Program-made: the position numbers and the translations under genes
In this document: positions 1 to 52,695 of the stretch, piece by piece
How the letters are laid out: each line of letters starts with the position of its first letter
How positions within the stretch are numbered: the stretch's first letter is position 1
From: an uncultured Flavobacteriales bacterium
Lineage (GTDB): Bacteria > Bacteroidota > Bacteroidia > Flavobacteriales > Crocinitomicaceae
DNA: 64,000 nucleotides
Direction of reading: 5' to 3'
NCBI GenBank assembly: GCA_946480085.1
Contig: CAMLHZ010000001.1
Span: 124,001 to 188,000, forward strand
Notes under the pieces: generated by a model
Told to the model about the DNA's origin: nothing
The model's input: only the letters and a program-made list of their open reading frames with translations
Database searches by the model: none

Positions 1-1655
1 GCAGAACCCATGTGTCCCCAAACCTTATAATGCCACGTTTGACTTTCAGCTACTTTAGAAGCTACAGCATCAATTGCCGCATTGATCTCTGCTTGACTCC
101 AAATGGTTCTTCTGAAATCTTCGTAACGGCATCTGACCAAATTGGCAAAGGTTGTATCCTGAAGTAAACGAATATACCAACCTGGTGCATTCACGTCCTG
201 ATCAACTTCACCGTACATGAATTGACTTCCATCTTCGGAGTCGCCCCACATGTCTTTTTGCGACCAATCGAAATCCCAAACTGGACCAGCTTTCAACTTG
301 CGAACTGTTCCATCAGTTTTGTCTTTATCTTTTGAGAAGAAACGGCTTTTCTTGAATCCGTCCACGTTTCTAGTTAATTCATTTACCAACAGATAATCTG
401 CGAAACTTTCGTCTCCGATATAAGCGTTATAACCTAATAAAGCATCGTCGAAGTCTACTCCATAAAGTGCATTTTCAAAATCATCAATAAAACCATGAAT
501 GTAGCTTAACTGCTGTGGCATCAGATCTTCCATTTTTGGTTCTACATGCACCATGTGGATGTCTAATCCGGGAAAACCAATTGGTGAATGCGAAAGCTGC
601 CATGAATTGCTGTTATCCCAATAATCTATCTTCAAAATGTACCCACCTGAATTGTCTGGATAAGTGATTTCTGTTGGTTCCAATTTATCAATGTCAATTC
701 GTCCACCATCGCGCTTGATTTTCTCGCAGAACAAATAAATTCCGTGATATTCACCGTTCATTACCACATCTACCAATTGCGAGCGAACGGCATAATGTCC
801 TAAACTATCGAACCATGAAAACGGTAAAATGTTTCTTGCAAATGATTTGTCATTGTAATTGGCAAGCAGCACCCAATCATTATCTCTCGACATTCCAAAA
901 AATGAAGTGTCGATTGCATTTCCATTGACATCCCAGGTTTCAAATCCGTAAGGTTTTTGTGGCAAACTAGCAGAATAATTTCCTCGGTATTCAATTCCAA
1001 TTTTTCCATCGTATTCGGGAGTATCGGTCAAATGATTTCTAATACCTGTACCATTATTGATGATACGCATATCCGCCATTACCTTTGGATCATTCGAAAT
1101 GATGTTCCCGTTGGTATTGATATCTACAATTGGTAACCAAGATTCCGTAAAAGAAAAATAACTCGCTGGATTATTCCCAAAAGTAATACTGAAAGAATTC
1201 ACGGTTCCTTCATCAGCTCCATAATTGTCGTTTACTCGTAAATGCCATGTTCCGTTTGGATTTTGGTTATTATTCACCAATCCCATTTGTCCAGTTGGCT
1301 TGAATGTTCCGGTAAAAGGAGCATTGCTGGCGCCAAATGTCAATGAACCATTGTCGTTTACACAGGTATTGGTGAAATTTTGTCCGCCACCACCAACATT
1401 TGCGAATAACACTCCTGCAGTTCCGTCGGGTGCAACGATCCAAACGGTTACATCAGCATCGTAAGTATGCGTGATATTTACACAAACCGTTTCCAAGCCA
1501 AAATTGGCAGTATCAATAGCATTCGGTAAGCCGCTAACCACAATAGGAATATCAATGGTTTGATTGTCATAAATGTTTCCGGTACCGCCGTTAAAAGTTT
1601 GGGCATTTACAAAACCCGTTGCGCAAAGCAAAATAGAGAGTAGCGTTTTTTTCAT
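1..1655 (-). CDS. Secreted P-domain / CotH kinase-family protein (partial, C-terminus beyond window)
   Basis: The reading frame is open from an ATG at 1655 to the left edge (about 551 codons, no stop), so the C-terminus is missing. Residues 1-19 form a signal peptide ending FVNAQ. Residues about 30-165 match a proprotein-convertase P (Homo B) domain: paired beta strands, DADVTVWIVAPDGT, and NPNGTWHLRVNDNYG near its end. Residues about 190-520 match the CotH kinase fold: GKIGIEYRGN, then NGEYHGIYLFCEKI (about 300-313), then GPVWDFDWSQ (about 457-466), the acidic motif expected to bind metal and nucleotide. CotH proteins are atypical secreted kinases; in Bacteroidota they are usually T9SS cargo, so a sorting tail probably follows outside the window. 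The domain calls are made by eye from motifs; the substrate is unknown. Confidence 0.85.
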   Translation of the reverse strand, partial: MKKTLLSILLCATGFVNAQTFNGGTGNIYDNQTIDIPIVVSGLPNAIDTANFGLETVCVNITHTYDADVTVWIVAPDGTAGVLFANVGGGGQNFTNTCVNDNGSLTFGASNAPFTGTFKPTGQMGLVNNNQNPNGTWHLRVNDNYGADEGTVNSFSITFGNNPASYFSFTESWLPIVDINTNGNIISNDPKVMADMRIINNGTGIRNHLTDTPEYDGKIGIEYRGNYSASLPQKPYGFETWDVNGNAIDTSFFGMSRDNDWVLLANYNDKSFARNILPFSWFDSLGHYAVRSQLVDVVMNGEYHGIYLFCEKIKRDGGRIDIDKLEPTEITYPDNSGGYILKIDYWDNSNSWQLSHSPIGFPGLDIHMVHVEPKMEDLMPQQLSYIHGFIDDFENALYGVDFDDALLGYNAYIGDESFADYLLVNELTRNVDGFKKSRFFSKDKDKTDGTVRKLKAGPVWDFDWSQKDMWGDSEDGSQFMYGEVDQDVNAPGWYIRLLQDTTFANLVRCRYEDFRRTIWSQAEINAAIDAVASKVAESQTWHYKVWGHMGS

Positions 1656-36255: not shown

Positions 36256-37389
36256 ATGAGAAAACAAATTGCTTTATTTAGCTTCTCGATTGCTGCAACT
36301 GCTATTCTTTTTGTTTCTTGTAAAAAAGAAACTACTGCAGGAGATGCGCCAACGTATGAGGTTCCAACATCGTACAACTTTGCAAATGCTGACACTATAG
36401 AAGGAAAGCAGCACATTGCAATGCTTGGCGAGTTGACTACATATATCCGAACGACACACTCGAACACTGTAGCGCCAGTTTTAGATGCACAGAAATTGAA
36501 AGACATGTTGGCAAACGTGAACAACTACTATTCTACACAAACGTTGAACAGTGCTGCAAGCTTGAAAAGCAAAATGTACTTTAATACAATTGCAGATCTT
36601 GAAGCTAATTTTGATGATGCTGCTCCTGCAAGTGTGAACGCCGGAAGTAATGCTACTGGAACAACAGCTTACAACGGACATGCCGGAAAATTGATCAATG
36701 GAACACGTTACATTCTTGTTGACGAAAACGGTGTTGAATTCAAAGAGTTTGCAGAAAAAGGAATTATGGGTGCGGTATTTTACTACCAGGCAGCTACGAT
36801 CTTAAACAATCTTGCATCTTTCGACAACACAACAGAAACAAACGGTCTAACAGATCAGGAACGTGCCTGGGATAAGGCTTTTGCTTTGTTCGGAGTACCA
36901 ACTACATTCCCGCAAACTACAACTGGCTTGAAAAACTGGGGAAGCTACTGTAATGCAGTAAGTAATGGTTTGGCAGGAAATACAAACAATGGTCCTTACG
37001 CTTTGAACTCTCAGATCATGGATGCATGGATTGCAGGAAGAGCGGCAGTTTCAAACGGAGACAATGCACGTCGTAATATGAATGCAGAGAAAGTTCTTCA
37101 ATTATGGGAAAAAGTAATTGCAGGTCGCTTTATTACATACACAAAGGGTGCTATCAACAACATCTCTGAACCAGCAACTTTTCACCACAATTTATCAGAA
37201 GCGGTTGGATTTATTACTGCGTTCAAATACAATTCAGCTAAGTCAATTTCAGATAGCAATATCGAAAACCTGCTGAACAACTTCAAAACAGGAAATGAAG
37301 TTAATCTTTACAATGTAAGTGTTTCAGACTTGAATAATGCAATTAACCAAATGGCTGCATTGTTCAACCTTGACGCTTCGAAACTATAA
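36256..37389 (+). CDS. DUF4856 domain lipoprotein
   Basis: The 377-residue protein has a lipoprotein signal (lipobox LFVSC, cysteine near residue 22). The mature part matches DUF4856: YEVPTSYNFANADTIEGKQHIAMLGEL at the start, GKLINGTRYILVDENG, EFAEKGIMGAVFYYQA, RAWDKAFALFGVP and FHHNLSEAVGFITAFKY. In Bacteroidota this domain usually sits beside imelysins and iron-related receptors, as here: an imelysin follows 66 bases after its stop. It is probably an outer-membrane or periplasmic part of an iron uptake system. The hairpin between the two genes may lower expression of the second. Confidence 0.88.
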   Translation: MRKQIALFSFSIAATAILFVSCKKETTAGDAPTYEVPTSYNFANADTIEGKQHIAMLGELTTYIRTTHSNTVAPVLDAQKLKDMLANVNNYYSTQTLNSAASLKSKMYFNTIADLEANFDDAAPASVNAGSNATGTTAYNGHAGKLINGTRYILVDENGVEFKEFAEKGIMGAVFYYQAATILNNLASFDNTTETNGLTDQERAWDKAFALFGVPTTFPQTTTGLKNWGSYCNAVSNGLAGNTNNGPYALNSQIMDAWIAGRAAVSNGDNARRNMNAEKVLQLWEKVIAGRFITYTKGAINNISEPATFHHNLSEAVGFITAFKYNSAKSISDSNIENLLNNFKTGNEVNLYNVSVSDLNNAINQMAALFNLDASKL

Positions 37390-37412
37390 TCTCTCCAGAT
37401 TTCCATAATTTT

Positions 37413-37449
37413 GGTTAGCCATCTTCGCGTGGCTAACCTTATTGTTTTT
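37413..37449 (+). terminator. Hairpin between DUF4856 and imelysin genes (partial terminator or attenuator)
   Basis: A perfect 8-bp stem GGTTAGCC / GGCTAACC (37413-37420, 37431-37438) with a 10-base loop is followed by TTATTGTTTTT. It lies 24 bases after one stop and 18 bases before the next ATG. Confidence 0.65.
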
Positions 37450-37455
37450 AAAGGC

Positions 37456-38535
37456 ATGAAAAAATTCAAAAGATTCGCATCACTTATTCTGGCGTTCGGG
37501 TTCTTATCATTATTGGCGTTCTCTTGTAAAAAAGAAACGGATGATGCCGTTGAGGACAACTTCCAAAAGGGAACATTGATGGAAAATGTAGCGAATAACA
37601 TCATCCTCGTTGAATACAATTCACTTGATCAAAAATTAGCAGCGTTTCAAACTGCTTATCAAACGTTTATTGCCAATCAGAATCAAAGCAATTTTGATCT
37701 TACCAAACAAACATGGTTCGATGCTTATCTGCAATGGGAAAAGTCACTGATGTTTGAATTTGGTCCGGCAATGAGCGAAGTGTTGAAATCATCTTTGGGA
37801 ACCTTTCCTACCGATTCAGCAACCATTGTTAACAATATCAATTCAGGATCTTTTGACCTGGATGCAGTAAGTAATTTCAAAGCACAGGGACTTCCTGCCT
37901 TCGATTTCCTTCTTCATCGTGCAAACGCCATGTCGTATTTCAGCAACAATGCCTATGCAGAATATGGAACCACATTGATTACTAAACTTAGAGCACATCT
38001 CACATCTGTAATCTCTCAATGGAATTCGGGTTACGCCTCAACGTTTAAAACCTCAACCGGAACTGAAACAACAGCTGCGTTCTCACTTTACGTTAATCAG
38101 TTTTGTAAATCATATGAAGAGTTAAAGTGGACAAAAATTGGAATTCCAATAGGAAATCAGATTGGAACGCCTCAACCGGATTACATTGAAGCGAAACACG
38201 CCAAGCAAGCTTTCCCATTGATGATAGAAAACATGAAGGCATTGCACCGTTTATTTAAAGGTGATAAAGGAACAGGTGAAACCGGAGTTGGTTTTGATGA
38301 TTACCTGATTGCTCTTGAAAAACAAGAATTAGTGGATCAGATCAATGGCTCATTTACATCCATCATTACAGATATGGAGGCCTTTGAGAACGACTTCGAA
38401 ACAGAATTGAACAATAATCCTGAAGCACTTCAAAATCTGTTCAATAAAATTCAGGCGCTTACGGTTTATCTGAAAACGGATATGACCTCTGCATTCTCGG
38501 TACTTATTTCTTATCAGGACAACGACGGGGATTAA
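37456..38535 (+). CDS. Imelysin family lipoprotein (peptidase M75-like)
   Basis: The 359-residue protein starts at ATG 37456, giving a lipoprotein signal with lipobox LLAFSC; an in-frame start at 37411 would span the hairpin. The imelysin core is visible: a long helical domain from about residue 40, LQWEKSLMFEFGPA (the usual W..s..f..GP), GLPAFDFLLHRAN (matching G.pa.e.lL) and VNQFCKSYEELKWTKIGIPIGNQIG. The classical GxHxxE motif of imelysin-like EfeO/M75 proteins is not present. It probably works with the preceding DUF4856 protein in iron acquisition. Confidence 0.88.
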   Translation: MKKFKRFASLILAFGFLSLLAFSCKKETDDAVEDNFQKGTLMENVANNIILVEYNSLDQKLAAFQTAYQTFIANQNQSNFDLTKQTWFDAYLQWEKSLMFEFGPAMSEVLKSSLGTFPTDSATIVNNINSGSFDLDAVSNFKAQGLPAFDFLLHRANAMSYFSNNAYAEYGTTLITKLRAHLTSVISQWNSGYASTFKTSTGTETTAAFSLYVNQFCKSYEELKWTKIGIPIGNQIGTPQPDYIEAKHAKQAFPLMIENMKALHRLFKGDKGTGETGVGFDDYLIALEKQELVDQINGSFTSIITDMEAFENDFETELNNNPEALQNLFNKIQALTVYLKTDMTSAFSVLISYQDNDGD

Positions 38536-48205: not shown

Positions 48206-48233
48206 TCCAGAATCATCACTTTATTTCAAAGAG

Positions 48234-48266
48234 AGGTCGTACGCCAAAGGCGCACGACCTTTTTTG
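48234..48266 (+). terminator. Rho-independent terminator of the fasciclin gene
   Basis: AGGTCGT (48234-48240) pairs with ACGACCT (48254-48260), extended by CGCC/GGCG inside, and is followed by TTTTTT. It starts 29 bases after the stop. Confidence 0.85.
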
Positions 48267-48279
48267 TTTAAATGCCTTT

Positions 48280-48347: not shown

Positions 48348-48842
48348 ATGGAACTGCAGGCTATTTATGAAAAAATGGGAAACAAGGTATTTAACCTTGC
48401 TCTGCAGTATGTACAAAACAAAGAAGACGCTGAGGAAATTACTCAAGACGTATTCGTAACTATTCACCAAAAGCAAGATCAGTTCAAAGGGGATTCTTTA
48501 CTTGAAACCTGGATTTACAGAATCACCGTAAACAAAAGCCTGGATTTTCTGAAGTACAAGAAACGAAAGCGCAGATGGATGCAACTAATGCGCATCGTCT
48601 TCACCGATGCTGACGTTTCAGATTTCAACCATCCCGGAATAGAAATCGAAAATAAAGAAGCCCTTGAATCACTGTTTTCAAAAATAAACTCGCTTTCCGA
48701 ACAACAGAAAACGGTAATTATTCTTTCAAAAATTGAGCATCTCAATCATACGGAAATAGCAGGAATCATGCAGGTTTCCACAAAAGCAGTTGAATCATTA
48801 CTCGCCCGGGCAAAAGAAAATTTGAAAAAAAAATTGGGGTAA
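48348..48842 (+). CDS. ECF RNA polymerase sigma factor
   Basis: The 164-residue sigma-70 family protein has region 2 (about 1-70; NLALQYVQNKEDAEEITQDVFVTIHQK, WIYRITVNKSLDFLKYKKRKRR) and region 4 (about 105-160; LSEQQKTVIILSKIEHLNHTEIA, STKAVESLLARAKENLKK). It would redirect RNA polymerase to a small regulon. It heads an operon of six genes: small membrane protein (42 bases later), Spy-like protein (4-base overlap), MbnP (4-base overlap), MbnH-like (4-base overlap) and YHYH protein (6-base gap). The next gene is the likely partner that holds it in check. Confidence 0.95.
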   Translation: MELQAIYEKMGNKVFNLALQYVQNKEDAEEITQDVFVTIHQKQDQFKGDSLLETWIYRITVNKSLDFLKYKKRKRRWMQLMRIVFTDADVSDFNHPGIEIENKEALESLFSKINSLSEQQKTVIILSKIEHLNHTEIAGIMQVSTKAVESLLARAKENLKKKLG

Positions 48843-48884
48843 GCGAGGGATAGAAATAAAAACGTCGTCAAAACAATTAGTGCA

Positions 48885-49139
48885 ATGGAAAAAGAACTGG
48901 AAATATTAAAGACAATTAAGCAAGTGGATGCTCCACCATTTCTGTTCACCAGAATTGAGGAGAAGATTCGCGTACATGCCAGTGAATATCTGAACACAAA
49001 GAAAACCGTTCTTTACCTCACCGGAATTGTAAGTGTGGTTGTTCTGAACGTTTGGATCATTTATGGGCAAAAACAAGAATCCAAACAAAATATTGCAGCA
49101 GAAATGCAATTGGTAGAATCAAATCAACTTTACGAATGA
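48885..49139 (+). CDS. Small single-pass membrane protein, possible anti-sigma factor
   Basis: The 84-residue protein has an N-terminal cytoplasmic-looking segment (LEILKTIKQVDAPPFLFTRIEEKI), one transmembrane helix (about 45-62, VLYLTGIVSVVVLNVWII) and a short outer tail. The PPFLFTRI-type segment is common in short Bacteroidota proteins that follow ECF sigma genes. It has no zinc-binding anti-sigma motif (HxxxCxxC). Position makes anti-sigma or sensing function likely; sequence alone does not prove it. Its stop overlaps the next ATG (ATGA). Confidence 0.7.
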   Translation: MEKELEILKTIKQVDAPPFLFTRIEEKIRVHASEYLNTKKTVLYLTGIVSVVVLNVWIIYGQKQESKQNIAAEMQLVESNQLYE

Positions 49140-49567
49140 AACGTTCTACCATAAAAAATATCTTTCTAATTGTGTTGTTGATTTCCAACTCGATATTGCT
49201 GTTTATGTGGATCAACGCTCCTCAGCACAGACGGCATGGACCAAGAAATCAGATTATTGAAAAACTGGATCTTTCTGAGAAACAAGTTGTTCAATACGAT
49301 GTTTACATTACAGAACACCGTAAATCGATACGTACTCTTGAAGATAAACTTTCACAGAAGAAAAAAGCGCTTTTTCATAACGTAGACAAACCTTTCAATG
49401 ATTCCATCGCAGAAGATATTTCAGAGATAGAGAAAGATATTCTGAAAGTTCACTACAAGCACATTCAGGAAATTAAAAGTCTTTGTAAAGGTGATCAACT
49501 CGAGAAATTTGAAAAATTGAACAAAGAGATCAGTCAACTGTTTAATGCCGGAAGACCAAAAAAATGA
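49136..49567 (+). CDS. Spy/CpxP-like periplasmic protein
   Basis: The 143-residue protein starts at ATG 49136, overlapping the previous stop by four bases; a longer in-frame start at 49052 would run inside the upstream gene. An N-terminal anchor (IFLIVLLISNSILLFMWI) is followed by HRRHGPRNQIIEKLDLSEKQVVQYDVY, the arrangement of Spy/CpxP/ZraP LTxxQ proteins, and long amphipathic helices to the end. These proteins are periplasmic chaperones or metal sensors that respond to metal and envelope stress. The RRHG cluster could bind metal. In this operon it likely senses or buffers the same metal as MbnP. Confidence 0.75.
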   Translation: MKRSTIKNIFLIVLLISNSILLFMWINAPQHRRHGPRNQIIEKLDLSEKQVVQYDVYITEHRKSIRTLEDKLSQKKKALFHNVDKPFNDSIAEDISEIEKDILKVHYKHIQEIKSLCKGDQLEKFEKLNKEISQLFNAGRPKK

Positions 49568-50226
49568 GTAGGTATTTCTTCATACTATTTCTGGTTCTTA
49601 CCCATTCCATTTGTGCACAAATGCATTTGGAAGTGAAAGTAATGGCCAATAACGAAGAAGTGATTTTGGGTCAACCGTTCGTTGTGGGTAATCAAACCTA
49701 TGAACTTAACCTCATCAAATTTTACATTACCAACTTAACATTCCTCAACAAGGGTGAAGTGGTTGCAGATTTTTCGAATAGTCCTAACCTCGTTAACCTG
49801 GAAGACGATTCCAGTACCGTTATTCCCGTTGCCGTTCCAACCAATTTCGATGAGATCAAATTTACGTTTGGCGTAGACAGTTCCACCAATGTGAATGGAA
49901 TTATGACGGGTGCGCTGGATCCAATTAATGGAATGTACTGGACATGGCAAAGCGGTTACATCAACTGCAAGATAGAAGGTCAAACTGTTGAAGAAAGCAG
50001 AAAAAACATTGAATACCACTTAGGGGGTTATCTACCGAACCAATTGGCTGCTCAAAACATCCGTCTCGCCGTTGACTCAAAAGCAGATCTTGTACTTGAA
50101 TTTCATATTGATGCAATTTTGTCTGGCTTGAACGATAAACGTTTGTTTCAAATCATGTCGCCCGGAGAAAACGCCATGTTAGCTTCAGGCTTGCTTTATA
50201 CGAACATAAAAATACACGGTAAATGA
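49564..50226 (+). CDS. MbnP family copper-binding protein
   Basis: The 220-residue secreted protein (signal peptide ends SICAQ) matches the MbnP family: LEVKVMANNEEVILGQPF at the start, YELNLIKFYITNL, NFDEIKFTFGVDS, GMYWTWQSGYINCKIEG (residues 123-139) and LEFHIDAIL. In characterised MbnP, a conserved Trp is oxidised to kynurenine by its di-haem partner MbnH, creating a Cu(I) site; Trp126 or Trp128 in the WTW motif is the candidate here. It overlaps its neighbours on both sides by four bases, and the next gene is an MbnH-like di-haem protein, which supports the assignment. Original MbnP sits in methanobactin clusters; none is seen here. Confidence 0.85.
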   Translation: MSRYFFILFLVLTHSICAQMHLEVKVMANNEEVILGQPFVVGNQTYELNLIKFYITNLTFLNKGEVVADFSNSPNLVNLEDDSSTVIPVAVPTNFDEIKFTFGVDSSTNVNGIMTGALDPINGMYWTWQSGYINCKIEGQTVEESRKNIEYHLGGYLPNQLAAQNIRLAVDSKADLVLEFHIDAILSGLNDKRLFQIMSPGENAMLASGLLYTNIKIHGK

Positions 50227-51242
50227 GAAGAATAGAACTGTTTTTTCTTCTTGGATTTATCGTCCTGATGTCGTTTACATACGGCAGTAAATTGCTATGG
50301 AAAACACCAACGGCTTGGCCAGAACCAACGTATAATTTCGCTAAAAACGAGCTGGATTCTAATGTTGTTCAGCTAGGACGAATTCTTTTCTATGACCCTA
50401 TTCTTTCTTCAGATAGCACCATTTCTTGTGCCAGTTGTCATTCTCCATACAATGCATTTACACATGTTGATCACGCATTAAGTCATGGTATTCGTGATCA
50501 GATTGGAAAACGCAATTCGCCTGTTCTGTTCAATTTAGCATGGAACAAAAGTTTCATGTGGGATGGAGCCATCAATCATTTAGATGTTCAGGCCCTTGCT
50601 CCTATTGAAAATCATCAGGAAATGGATGAGAAACTACCGAATGTCATCAAAAAACTATCTCGAAATAAACGCTATCAGGAATTCTTTTTAAAAGCCTATG
50701 GAACAAACAAGATTACGAGCGAACGCTTACTGAAATCCATCTCACAATTCATGCTTACACTGGTAAGTTCCAATTCAAAATACGATAAAATTATACGCAA
50801 CGAATCAGGTGTCCAGTTCACTACCAACGAACAAAAGGGTTATGAACTATTCAAACAACATTGCGCAAGTTGTCATACAGAACCCTTGTTTACCAACAAC
50901 ACCTTTCAAAACAACGGATTGGCACCTGATTCTATATTGAATGATCCCGGACGAATGGGAATTACTGGAAAAGAGGAAGACAACTTGAAATTTAAAGTTC
51001 CTACCCTTCGAAACATTGAGCGCTCAGCTCCTTACATGCACGACGGTAGATATAAAAACCTGCAAATGGTTATGTTTCATTATTCCAGCAACATTCATAA
51101 CAGCGGAACCCTTGCCCCAGCATTGAAGGGTGGAATAGCATTATCGGAAGAAGATAAAAAGAACATTATTGCTTTTTTGAAAACGCTGACAGACAATGAA
51201 TTTTTAAACAATAAATCATATCAATATCCACGAAAACAATAA
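50223..51242 (+). CDS. Di-haem cytochrome c peroxidase family protein, MbnH-like
   Basis: The 339-residue protein has an N-terminal membrane-type signal and two c-type haem sites: CASCH at residues 69-73 and CASCH at residues 214-218. Family landmarks are RNSPVLFNLAWNKSFMWDG, LDVQALAPIENHQEM, GYELFKQHCASCHTEPLF, KFKVPTLRNIERSAPYMHDG and IAFLKTLTD. This is the bacterial cytochrome c peroxidase/MauG/MbnH superfamily. Adjacent MbnP makes an MbnH role (oxidising a partner Trp) more likely than peroxide detoxification. The four-base overlap with MbnP implies coupled translation. Confidence 0.88.
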   Translation: MRRIELFFLLGFIVLMSFTYGSKLLWKTPTAWPEPTYNFAKNELDSNVVQLGRILFYDPILSSDSTISCASCHSPYNAFTHVDHALSHGIRDQIGKRNSPVLFNLAWNKSFMWDGAINHLDVQALAPIENHQEMDEKLPNVIKKLSRNKRYQEFFLKAYGTNKITSERLLKSISQFMLTLVSSNSKYDKIIRNESGVQFTTNEQKGYELFKQHCASCHTEPLFTNNTFQNNGLAPDSILNDPGRMGITGKEEDNLKFKVPTLRNIERSAPYMHDGRYKNLQMVMFHYSSNIHNSGTLAPALKGGIALSEEDKKNIIAFLKTLTDNEFLNNKSYQYPRKQ

Positions 51243-51248
51243 CAGAAA

Positions 51249-52598
51249 ATGAAAAATAAACTTCTCCTATTAGGACTAATAACAACTAACCTGGCTGCAA
51301 ATGCTCAAGGTCCGGCAATTACTTCTTGGTTGCAAAACAACACCATTTACGGCAGACATTATGTAAGCGGGAATTCCACCGCCATTCAAGACAATGTGCT
51401 CTCCAACACACAATTGATTGAATATTCAACAAGCTGGGTATATGTCCACACACATGGAATACCAACTTACGTTACGGGTCCATATTTGGACGGAAATCCA
51501 TCCTTGGCAAGCGATCAAAACGCCATTTTCAAATTTCCATTAACACCCACTCAAAACACCGGAACCTTAACCGCGACAACTGGTGGTAACATTGGCGTCT
51601 TCATCAATGGTGTTGCACTGTTCGACTACAGAGACGGCGTTTCATGGAAAAGTTCCAACAGCACACTTGCTGGTGGCCCTTATGGAGGAATGGGAGATGG
51701 TGTTTGGAATAGAGACGCTGTAGTTGGCGAATTGGGTGGTTTCGACTGTTCAAAAGGACATCCTGCAATGGGGAATTACCATCATCACCAAAACCCAAGC
51801 GCATTTGATTTGGATTTGGATGTGATTTCTACCGTTTGTAACCTGTACGATGCAGATGGGCTTTACGCTATTGACAGTACAGAACATTCGCCATTGATTG
51901 GGTTTGCTTACGACGGATTTCCAATCTACGGAGCATACGCTTATGAAAACGCGAATGGAACAGGGAATATCGTTCGTATGAAATCAAGTTATACTTTACG
52001 AAACATCACTGTTCGAAACACCTATTCCAACGGAAGTTCGGTAACTGCGGGACCCAATGTGAGCACAACTTATCCGCTTGGATACTTTAGAGAAGATTAC
52101 GAATATACCGCTCCAGCATCTGACGATTATTTGGACGCACACAATGGACGTTTTTGTGTAACACCTGAATATCCCGCTGGAATTTACTGCTATTTTGCAA
52201 CGGTTGACGAAAACTGGAATTCGGCTTACCCATACGCAGTTGGACCAACATTCTACGGAAATAAAGTGGCTGCGAAAGTGACAAGCGTTTCAGAAACGAC
52301 AACTGTTTACGAAAGCACAGCAGGAATTACACAACAAGAATTGGAAAACCTACAGATAGAAGTTTTCCCGAATCCTGCCACAAACCTGGTAGCAGTTCAA
52401 ATCAATGGATTAGTAGAAGAAAACCTTACTGTTCGTTTAGTTGATATGGCAGGAAGAGAGATCAGCTCATCAATGATAGCAGCCGGAAGCACTATTTCTT
52501 ACTTCAATACTGAAGGATTGAAATCGGGTGAATATCTACTACTGATTAGCAGTTCAGCTGGAACAACAAACAAAAAATTGAGCGTAATCAACGATTAA
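51249..52598 (+). CDS. YHYH domain protein with T9SS sorting tail
   Basis: The 449-residue secreted protein (signal peptide MKNKLLLLGLITTNLAANAQ) contains a YHYH domain (about 60-335): YVHTHGIPTYVTGPY, GVFINGVALFDYRDGVSW, GHPAMGNYHHHQNPSAF (about 172-187, the eponymous histidine motif, here YHHH), LIGFAYDGFPIYGAY and the C-terminal FCVTPEYPAGIYCYFAT. The last about 80 residues are a T9SS type A tail (VFPNPATNLVAVQI through KSGEYLLLISS). It lies six bases after the MbnH-like gene. The function of YHYH proteins is not established; the His-rich motif suggests metal. It is the only T9SS cargo in the operon. Confidence 0.88.
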   Translation: MKNKLLLLGLITTNLAANAQGPAITSWLQNNTIYGRHYVSGNSTAIQDNVLSNTQLIEYSTSWVYVHTHGIPTYVTGPYLDGNPSLASDQNAIFKFPLTPTQNTGTLTATTGGNIGVFINGVALFDYRDGVSWKSSNSTLAGGPYGGMGDGVWNRDAVVGELGGFDCSKGHPAMGNYHHHQNPSAFDLDLDVISTVCNLYDADGLYAIDSTEHSPLIGFAYDGFPIYGAYAYENANGTGNIVRMKSSYTLRNITVRNTYSNGSSVTAGPNVSTTYPLGYFREDYEYTAPASDDYLDAHNGRFCVTPEYPAGIYCYFATVDENWNSAYPYAVGPTFYGNKVAAKVTSVSETTTVYESTAGITQQELENLQIEVFPNPATNLVAVQINGLVEENLTVRLVDMAGREISSSMIAAGSTISYFNTEGLKSGEYLLLISSSAGTTNKKLSVIND

Positions 52599-52614
52599 GC
52601 ATTGTTTTCAAAAG

Positions 52615-52673
52615 AAAAACCCGGCACTTCGGCATCTCGACTCCGCTCGATGACCTTGTGACTGGGTTTTTTT
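52615..52673. terminator. Two-way terminator hairpin carrying a 40-bp repeat (copy A)
   Basis: AAAAACCC and GGGTTTTTTT close a hairpin between two convergent genes. Positions 52625-52664 are identical, as reverse complement, to 54576-54615. Includes the CGACTCCGCTC word also found in the 22.9 kb hairpin. Confidence 0.7.
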
Positions 52674-52695
52674 ATGACTTTATGATGTTGTCTTT

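Follow-up and report, generated by a model that had tools for sequence, protein, structure and literature searches.

The element described here is a six-gene unit in a 64,000-nucleotide window of contig CAMLHZ010000001.1, from an uncultured Flavobacteriales bacterium. In it, an MbnP–MbnH gene pair stands between three genes that resemble a metal-responsive sigma switch and a gene for a YHYH protein that carries the sorting tail of the type IX secretion system (T9SS). The closest described system is the MbnP–MbnH pair of methanotrophs and other bacteria (the 'metallo-mystery pair', TIGR04052/TIGR04039), with which the locus shares the gene order, the MbnP fold, a W-x-W motif with a His (and a Met), and a di-haem enzyme with an axial Tyr. 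It differs in that both proteins fall below the equivalog cut-offs of these families, in a shorter MbnP (220 aa, where the 7l6g chain has 299), and in the joining of the pair to a sigma/anti-sigma/sensor trio and a T9SS-tailed YHYH protein. The preliminary description of the locus presented it as independent of methanobactin; this is not new, because MbnP–MbnH pairs outside methanobactin operons are already known (PMC3621798). Its narrower statement that methanobactin genes are missing holds for the thirteen other open reading frames of the window checked by Pfam, and reaches those frames only. In another bacterial group, MbnPH-like genes are reported in operons with copper genes (PMC9426467).

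Two further described systems share part of this anatomy. CorA/CorB and MopE/SACCP of methanotrophs also place a surface-associated Cu(I) protein with a Trp-derived kynurenine beside a di-haem protein (PMC3912023), properties that are predicted for the window MbnP. CorA has Kyn62, His64 and His114, whereas the window MbnP has Trp, not His, two residues after the first Trp, and the export tail is here on YHYH and not on the MbnP-like protein. According to a review, CnrYXH of Cupriavidus metallidurans plasmid pMOL28 is a membrane-located sigma switch that responds to Co/Ni (PMC7689651). It likewise sets an extracytoplasmic function (ECF) sigma factor, a small membrane anti-sigma factor and a membrane-anchored helical periplasmic metal sensor beside the controlled genes, which there belong to a resistance-nodulation-division pump and here are MbnP, MbnH and YHYH; the order is Y-X-H there and sigma-anti-sigma-sensor here. 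Beside cnrYXH in pMOL28 there is also a 40-aa protein annotated as 'YHYH domain-containing' (L219:12905-13027); it has no Pfam match, and its likeness to PF14240 is therefore putative.

CnrYXH, YHYH, T9SS tails and MbnP–MbnH without methanobactin are all known already; their joining and the close tie of YHYH to one MbnH type were met in no paper of the literature searched, which contained no description of the operon, none joining YHYH and MbnP, and none of the sigma-Spy trio. The reading we lean towards, by a modest measure, is an envelope copper-handling operon of Bacteroidota, composed of a CnrYXH-like switch, the MbnP–MbnH pair and a surface-exported YHYH partner, for which a copper role is a likely prediction. 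The gene-level observation of the preliminary description is confirmed and its interpretation partly supported; copper binding, kynurenine formation and surface copper capture are predicted.

Results

Recurrence of the six-gene order

Of 493 pattern matches in genome contigs, 474 encode relatives. These were ranked by their similarity to the window MbnP and the top 80 retained, which biases the sample towards close relatives. In 79 of these 80 loci the gene after MbnP is MbnH. YHYH follows in 60 of the 72 loci with room for it (at least 2.6 kb; 64/80 overall), counted with a domain-only profile since an earlier profile also caught T9SS tails and inflated the counts. The sigma factor, anti-sigma factor and sensor precede MbnP in 33 of the 69 loci with room (at least 1.7 kb). 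The survey of gene order that had been proposed for Bacteroidota found all six genes in 26 of the 61 loci with room on both sides, where YHYH is found in 26/29 loci with the switch and 25/32 without it. Record titles of the 80 loci include Flavobacteriales, Chitinophagales, Saprospiraceae, Sphingobacteriales and one Candidatus Kapaibacterium. Because the gene order recurs in many loci, the arrangement is more than chance. By eye, genes near the pair also resemble those of a thioredoxin/AhpC-type protein, in 9 loci, and of a methionine sulfoxide reductase, in 5; L010, a locus without YHYH, is among the loci concerned.

YHYH is tied to one MbnH type

We surveyed 120 genomes of the order, with operon-type MbnH (MbnH-I) taken as at least 430 bits, a threshold set after seeing the scores, YHYH as at least 570 bits and operon-type MbnP as at least 150 bits. 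The YHYH profile search scored the best 14 or fewer candidates per genome, many being T9SS tails, and these counts and those for the phylum rest on the matches listed, which makes absences less certain than presences. MbnH-I is present in 33 of the 120 genomes and YHYH in all 33 (split in two matches in one), within 6 kb in 31; YHYH reaches the same level in at least 3 of the other 87 (Fisher 2e-26, uncorrected for kinship). Operon-type MbnP, found in 31 genomes, lies beside MbnH in 28, and the other 3 have MbnP at a contig end or a short MbnH match. YHYH is tied to MbnH-I about as closely as MbnP is. The sensor appears, among the matches listed, in 33 of the 120 genomes and stands beside MbnH-I in 16/33; across the phylum the sensor is matched, often weakly, in at least 135 of 296 genomes.

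When all types of MbnP are counted, 185 of 199 genomes of the order have one. Four genomes that were read individually hold two MbnP copies each, the second in a lipoprotein-type pair (L081–L084) that keeps the MbnP-then-MbnH order and W-x-W. This pair differs from the window pair by a lipobox-like Cys (by eye), with no YHYH domain gene or sigma trio alongside in the four regions read; two weak YHYH matches in L082 come from the earlier profile, which picks up T9SS tails as well. It adjoins a further secreted or membrane protein gene (e.g. L083:5732-7598), and small Cys-rich genes and a SCO-like gene were seen by eye near it in L083. One genome (L233) has the order MbnP MbnH sigma sensor MbnP MbnH, with YHYH ∼65 kb away.

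The YHYH protein itself scores 193.4 bits against PF14240 (gathering score 25), and its tail, of the T9SS type A kind, 40.8 bits against PF18962 (27) and 35.3 against TIGR04183 (23); the modelled tail matches solved T9SS tails. A tail is present in 62 of 67 YHYH open reading frames, and the 5 without one are cut at contig ends. Across 36 aligned sequences (the window protein and 35 of 74 usable frames), H171, H180, H213, D166, D222 and W153 are kept in every one, and the same six are kept in YHYH proteins away from MbnH, except in L186, where position 213 is Ala and position 161 a gap. In a jumbo-phage paper, conserved His and Asp residues are the ground for predicting a Zn site, and a hydrolase is guessed at (PMC7824862). 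In eight of twelve regions with YHYH genes away from MbnH, these genes adjoin a related 497–580 aa family-less protein (L220–L224, L226, L229, L230).

MbnP and its di-haem partner

The window MbnP has the fold of solved MbnP and scores 115.9 bits against PF20243 (gathering score 27). Trp126 and Trp128, pointed out beforehand, are kept together with H152 and M198 in all 41 MbnP sequences aligned. The W and H align to 7l6g at a weak E of 0.085, with the Met outside that alignment; a PDB sequence search gave no match for the single protein (E ≤ 1) or the MbnP alignment profile (E ≤ 10). A 2021 study by Manesis reportedly describes a Cu(I) site of MbnP with W/H/M residues, and we take W126, H152 and M198 to be that site. 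Fold and W-x-W + His + Met together support the window protein as a genuine MbnP, and by analogy it would bind Cu(I) and have a Trp converted to kynurenine.

The partner enzyme has two CXXCH motifs, at the CASCH sites already noticed, and a CCP_MauG domain. In an alignment of 32 sequences (the window enzyme and 31 of 71 usable relatives) Tyr287 is invariant, and it sits on the Tyr of MbnH 6e1c, where the peroxidase 1iqc has Met. In MauG and MbnH this Tyr is the haem ligand. The axial position is a sharper test than score ranking, and it is here of the MbnH type.

A CnrYXH-like trio

A trio of the CnrYXH type, with an ECF sigma factor, a small membrane anti-sigma factor and a periplasmic sensor, is adjacent in the window (membrane-spanning stretches by eye) and in the 33 of 69 relatives. 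The sigma factor is identical to CnrH at 37 of 147 positions (25%). Gene 2 had been called a small membrane protein: one membrane-spanning stretch is visible by eye, while no Pfam or NCBIfam family was found above cut-off, and the CnrY family PF17524 has no match in it whereas real CnrY matches at 2.2e-51. Gene 3 had been labelled a Spy-like LTxxQ protein, and this label stands only in part. The window protein has no Pfam family above cut-off, neither Metal_resist nor LTXXQ, and its Spy/CnrX superfamily link comes through its family: among 35 aligned sensors (gene 3 and 34 of 40 usable relatives), PF13801 Metal_resist matches 17 at E ≤ 0.1 (best 1.5e-6) and LTXXQ 4.

N18, H61 and Q121 are invariant in this alignment, and H109 and C117 are kept in 34/35. 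A set of 53 further sensors, one per region and mostly the best phylum or order search hits, has His61 in 49, His109 in 49 and Cys117 in 46. CnrX of pMOL28 is Metal_resist by Pfam and aligns lengthwise with the sensor family, and in the profile alignment its His119 falls on H109 and its Met123 on Ile113. As His is retained where CnrX has His119, while Met123 has no counterpart, and a further His and Cys are conserved, genes 1–3 appear, from their sequences, to resemble the CnrH/CnrY/CnrX metal switch more than a plain Spy stress system. The trio is widespread in Bacteroidota, and the genes next to it include several for T9SS-tailed proteins (YHYH, multicopper oxidase, CotH, Lcl_C).

Layout and boundaries

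An open reading frame check places six plus-strand genes at 48348–52598, each where it had been described and as tightly packed: 4-base overlaps join genes 2/3, 3/4 and 4/5, and gaps of 42 and 6 bases separate genes 1/2 and 5/6 (Table 1). Pfam agrees with the ECF sigma factor, MbnP, di-haem, YHYH and T9SS-tail identities given earlier. The upstream gene is a fasciclin gene (Pfam), and since a hairpin with a T-run separates it from the operon, the sigma gene is probably the first of the unit. Both flanking hairpins were missed by a simple consensus terminator scan and were found by folding against shuffles. The six genes are supported as one real gene unit, presumably read as a single transcript. 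Elsewhere in the window, DUF4856 and imelysin genes stand in tandem at 36256-38535, perhaps an iron-related pair, and a CotH-kinase protein with a P-domain is cut by the window edge (3-1655, minus strand); in other genomes, CotH is one of the proteins encoded just after the sensor trio.

Table 1. Features of the operon and its boundaries, in window coordinates
Feature	Position	Strand	Evidence
Terminator-like hairpin with T-run, between fasciclin gene and operon	48226..48270	+	-22.4 kcal/mol, z -5.63, 0/200 shuffles as good
ECF sigma factor, 164 aa, CnrH-like role	48348..48842	+	Sigma70_r2 2.6e-13, Sigma70_r4_2 3.4e-12; 25% identity to CnrH
Small protein, 84 aa, one membrane-spanning stretch (by eye), probable anti-sigma factor (CnrY-like role)	48885..49139	+	Position and order kept in relatives
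Sensor-like protein, 143 aa, membrane-anchored (by eye), Spy/CnrX superfamily	49136..49567	+	H61 invariant in alignment, H109 and C117 near-invariant; collinear with CnrX
MbnP, 220 aa, signal peptide (by eye)	49564..50226	+	PF20243 2.7e-33; candidate Cu(I) site W126/H152/M198, with W128
MbnH/MauG-type di-haem enzyme, 339 aa	50223..51242	+	CCP_MauG PF03150 3e-54; CASCH at 69-73 and 214-218; Tyr287 at axial position
YHYH protein, 449 aa, signal peptide (by eye) and T9SS sorting tail	51249..52598	+	YHYH PF14240 5.3e-57; Por_Secre_tail PF18962 2.9e-10
Terminator-like hairpin with T-run, after operon	52608..52678	+	-24.7 kcal/mol, z -4.36, 0/200 shuffles as good

Discussion

The anatomy of the unit, read alongside CnrYXH and characterised MbnP, suggests how an envelope copper-handling operon could work. 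His61, His109 and Cys117 of the periplasmic sensor would bind a metal, copper being the likeliest, upon which the small membrane protein would free the sigma factor and the sigma factor would switch on the operon. The two haems of MbnH would oxidise Trp126 of MbnP to kynurenine, which together with His152 and Met198 would make up the Cu(I) site. T9SS would carry the YHYH protein, which has a His/Asp metal-site candidate of its own, to the surface, where it would serve as an outer copper-binding or copper-dependent partner of the pair. In a bolder version, which we regard as possible but doubtful, YHYH is a surface copper protein or enzyme and the obligate third component of one MbnP–MbnH lineage, matured or loaded in the periplasm by MbnP/MbnH before its export, such that in Bacteroidota a kynurenine-dependent copper system would span the outer membrane, controlled by a sigma switch of its own that senses copper.

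A number of results weigh against the copper-handling reading, and we give them here with the alternatives on which they bear. Both members of the pair score below their NCBIfam cut-offs (TIGR04039 MbnH, 204.2 bits against 362.85; TIGR04052 MbnP_like_WxW, 35.7 against 140), and the window MbnP is therefore not classed as a TIGR04052 equivalog. The operon had been called self-regulated, which the upstream sequences do not bear out: when 33 de-duplicated upstream regions were searched for spaced dyads, the highest count was 4, against shuffle maxima of 4–6 (20 sets), so that no promoter-like dyad stood out and self-regulation through an ECF promoter is unsupported. With spacing pooled, an AT-rich dyad counted 11 against shuffle maxima of 7–10 (10 sets), and is unlike an ECF site. 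No NCBIfam family is named in more than 2 of the 35 sensor sequences, and the sensor–CnrX profile comparison is weak (probability 11.5%, E 0.0026). Of the CnrX Ni/Co ligands just the His119 position is kept in the sensor family, and Met123, His42, His46 and Glu63 are not; we therefore class the sensor as working like CnrX, and not as CnrX. Copper demand at the level of the genome was tried as a correlate and rejected, as neither NosZ (0/33 MbnH-I genomes, against 11/87 others) nor multicopper oxidase (13/33 against 29/87) tracks the operon.

The switch could instead sense nickel, cobalt, zinc or metals generally, with MbnP-MbnH-YHYH handling that metal. We consider this unlikely, although CnrYXH, the nearest characterised switch, senses Co/Ni (PMC7689651). 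The H61/H109/C117 set would suit Zn too, and the cargo of the switch is varied, with T9SS-tailed CotH (L168, L191), T9SS-tailed Lcl_C (L150, L159) and an MscS channel (L151) after the sensor. A T9SS-tailed multicopper oxidase follows the sensor in L192 and lies convergent to it in L193, which favours copper; within 5 kb of 33 sensors there are 3 multicopper oxidases against 0.047 expected (p 2e-5; for at least 2, p 0.001), in a test that was carried out with the first case already known and whose third case is a contig-end fragment in G123. Against another metal also stand the absence of Met123 and of the other Ni/Co ligands of CnrX, and the retention in MbnP of the W/H/M set that we take to be its Cu(I) site.

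It is likewise improbable that the genes form a periplasmic stress operon, in which a Spy-like chaperone or sensor would respond to misfolding or oxidation, the di-haem enzyme would be an ordinary peroxidase, and MbnP and YHYH would be protective. By sequence, the PDB entry closest to the sensor family is Spy (3oeo, E 0.0019), and MsrB-like and thioredoxin-like neighbours are seen by eye in some loci. The single di-haem sequence ranks the peroxidases 1iqc (152.5 bits) and 3o5c above MbnH (6e1c, 113 bits), and the family profile, which places 6e1c first (3.3e-53), practically ties it with 1iqc (5.8e-53). However, the axial position is Tyr and not Met in 32/32 sequences, MbnP and MbnH are adjacent in 79/80 loci, and Metal_resist outnumbers LTXXQ among the 35 sensor proteins by 17 to 4.

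Quite improbable, finally, is that YHYH is unrelated T9SS cargo that happens to be under switch control, leaving MbnP–MbnH alone as the unit: the switch does precede YHYH-like genes without MbnP/MbnH (L149, L158, L186, L195) and other T9SS cargo, and YHYH lacks a neighbouring MbnH in 12 regions chosen for that (L220–L231), but three of those four switch-only cases are weak (48, 17/16 and 90 bits), YHYH accompanies the pair in 25 of the 32 switch-less loci whose contigs leave room on both sides, and 33/33 MbnH-I genomes carry it. Among the other 87 genomes, YHYH occurs without MbnH-I in at least 3 at the same level and at least 13 at a weaker one (77–455 bits). Neither sequence nor model searches turned up a solved relative of the YHYH domain, and when the modelled protein was compared with solved structures (VIA), all of the 50 matches listed fell on the tail (358–449); the YHYH domain was not folded alone, and may thus have a known fold.

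As a separate matter, YHYH was considered as a substrate of MbnH through its invariant Trp, and this was rejected. W153 is also kept in 15 full-domain YHYH proteins without a neighbouring MbnP–MbnH (L195, L199, L201, L220–L231) and in the weaker L186, and is therefore no indication that MbnH acts on it; the residue is present in L200 and L202 as well, but these lie at contig ends.

MbnP–MbnH pairs are known far outside methanotrophs, and a conserved, surface-tagged third partner with a built-in metal-sensor-like switch offers a concrete hypothesis for their function in Bacteroidota, namely surface copper handling. For the YHYH family, which is uncharacterised, the operon supplies a partner and points to a likely metal, and the switch is a candidate copper-type member of the CnrYXH design.

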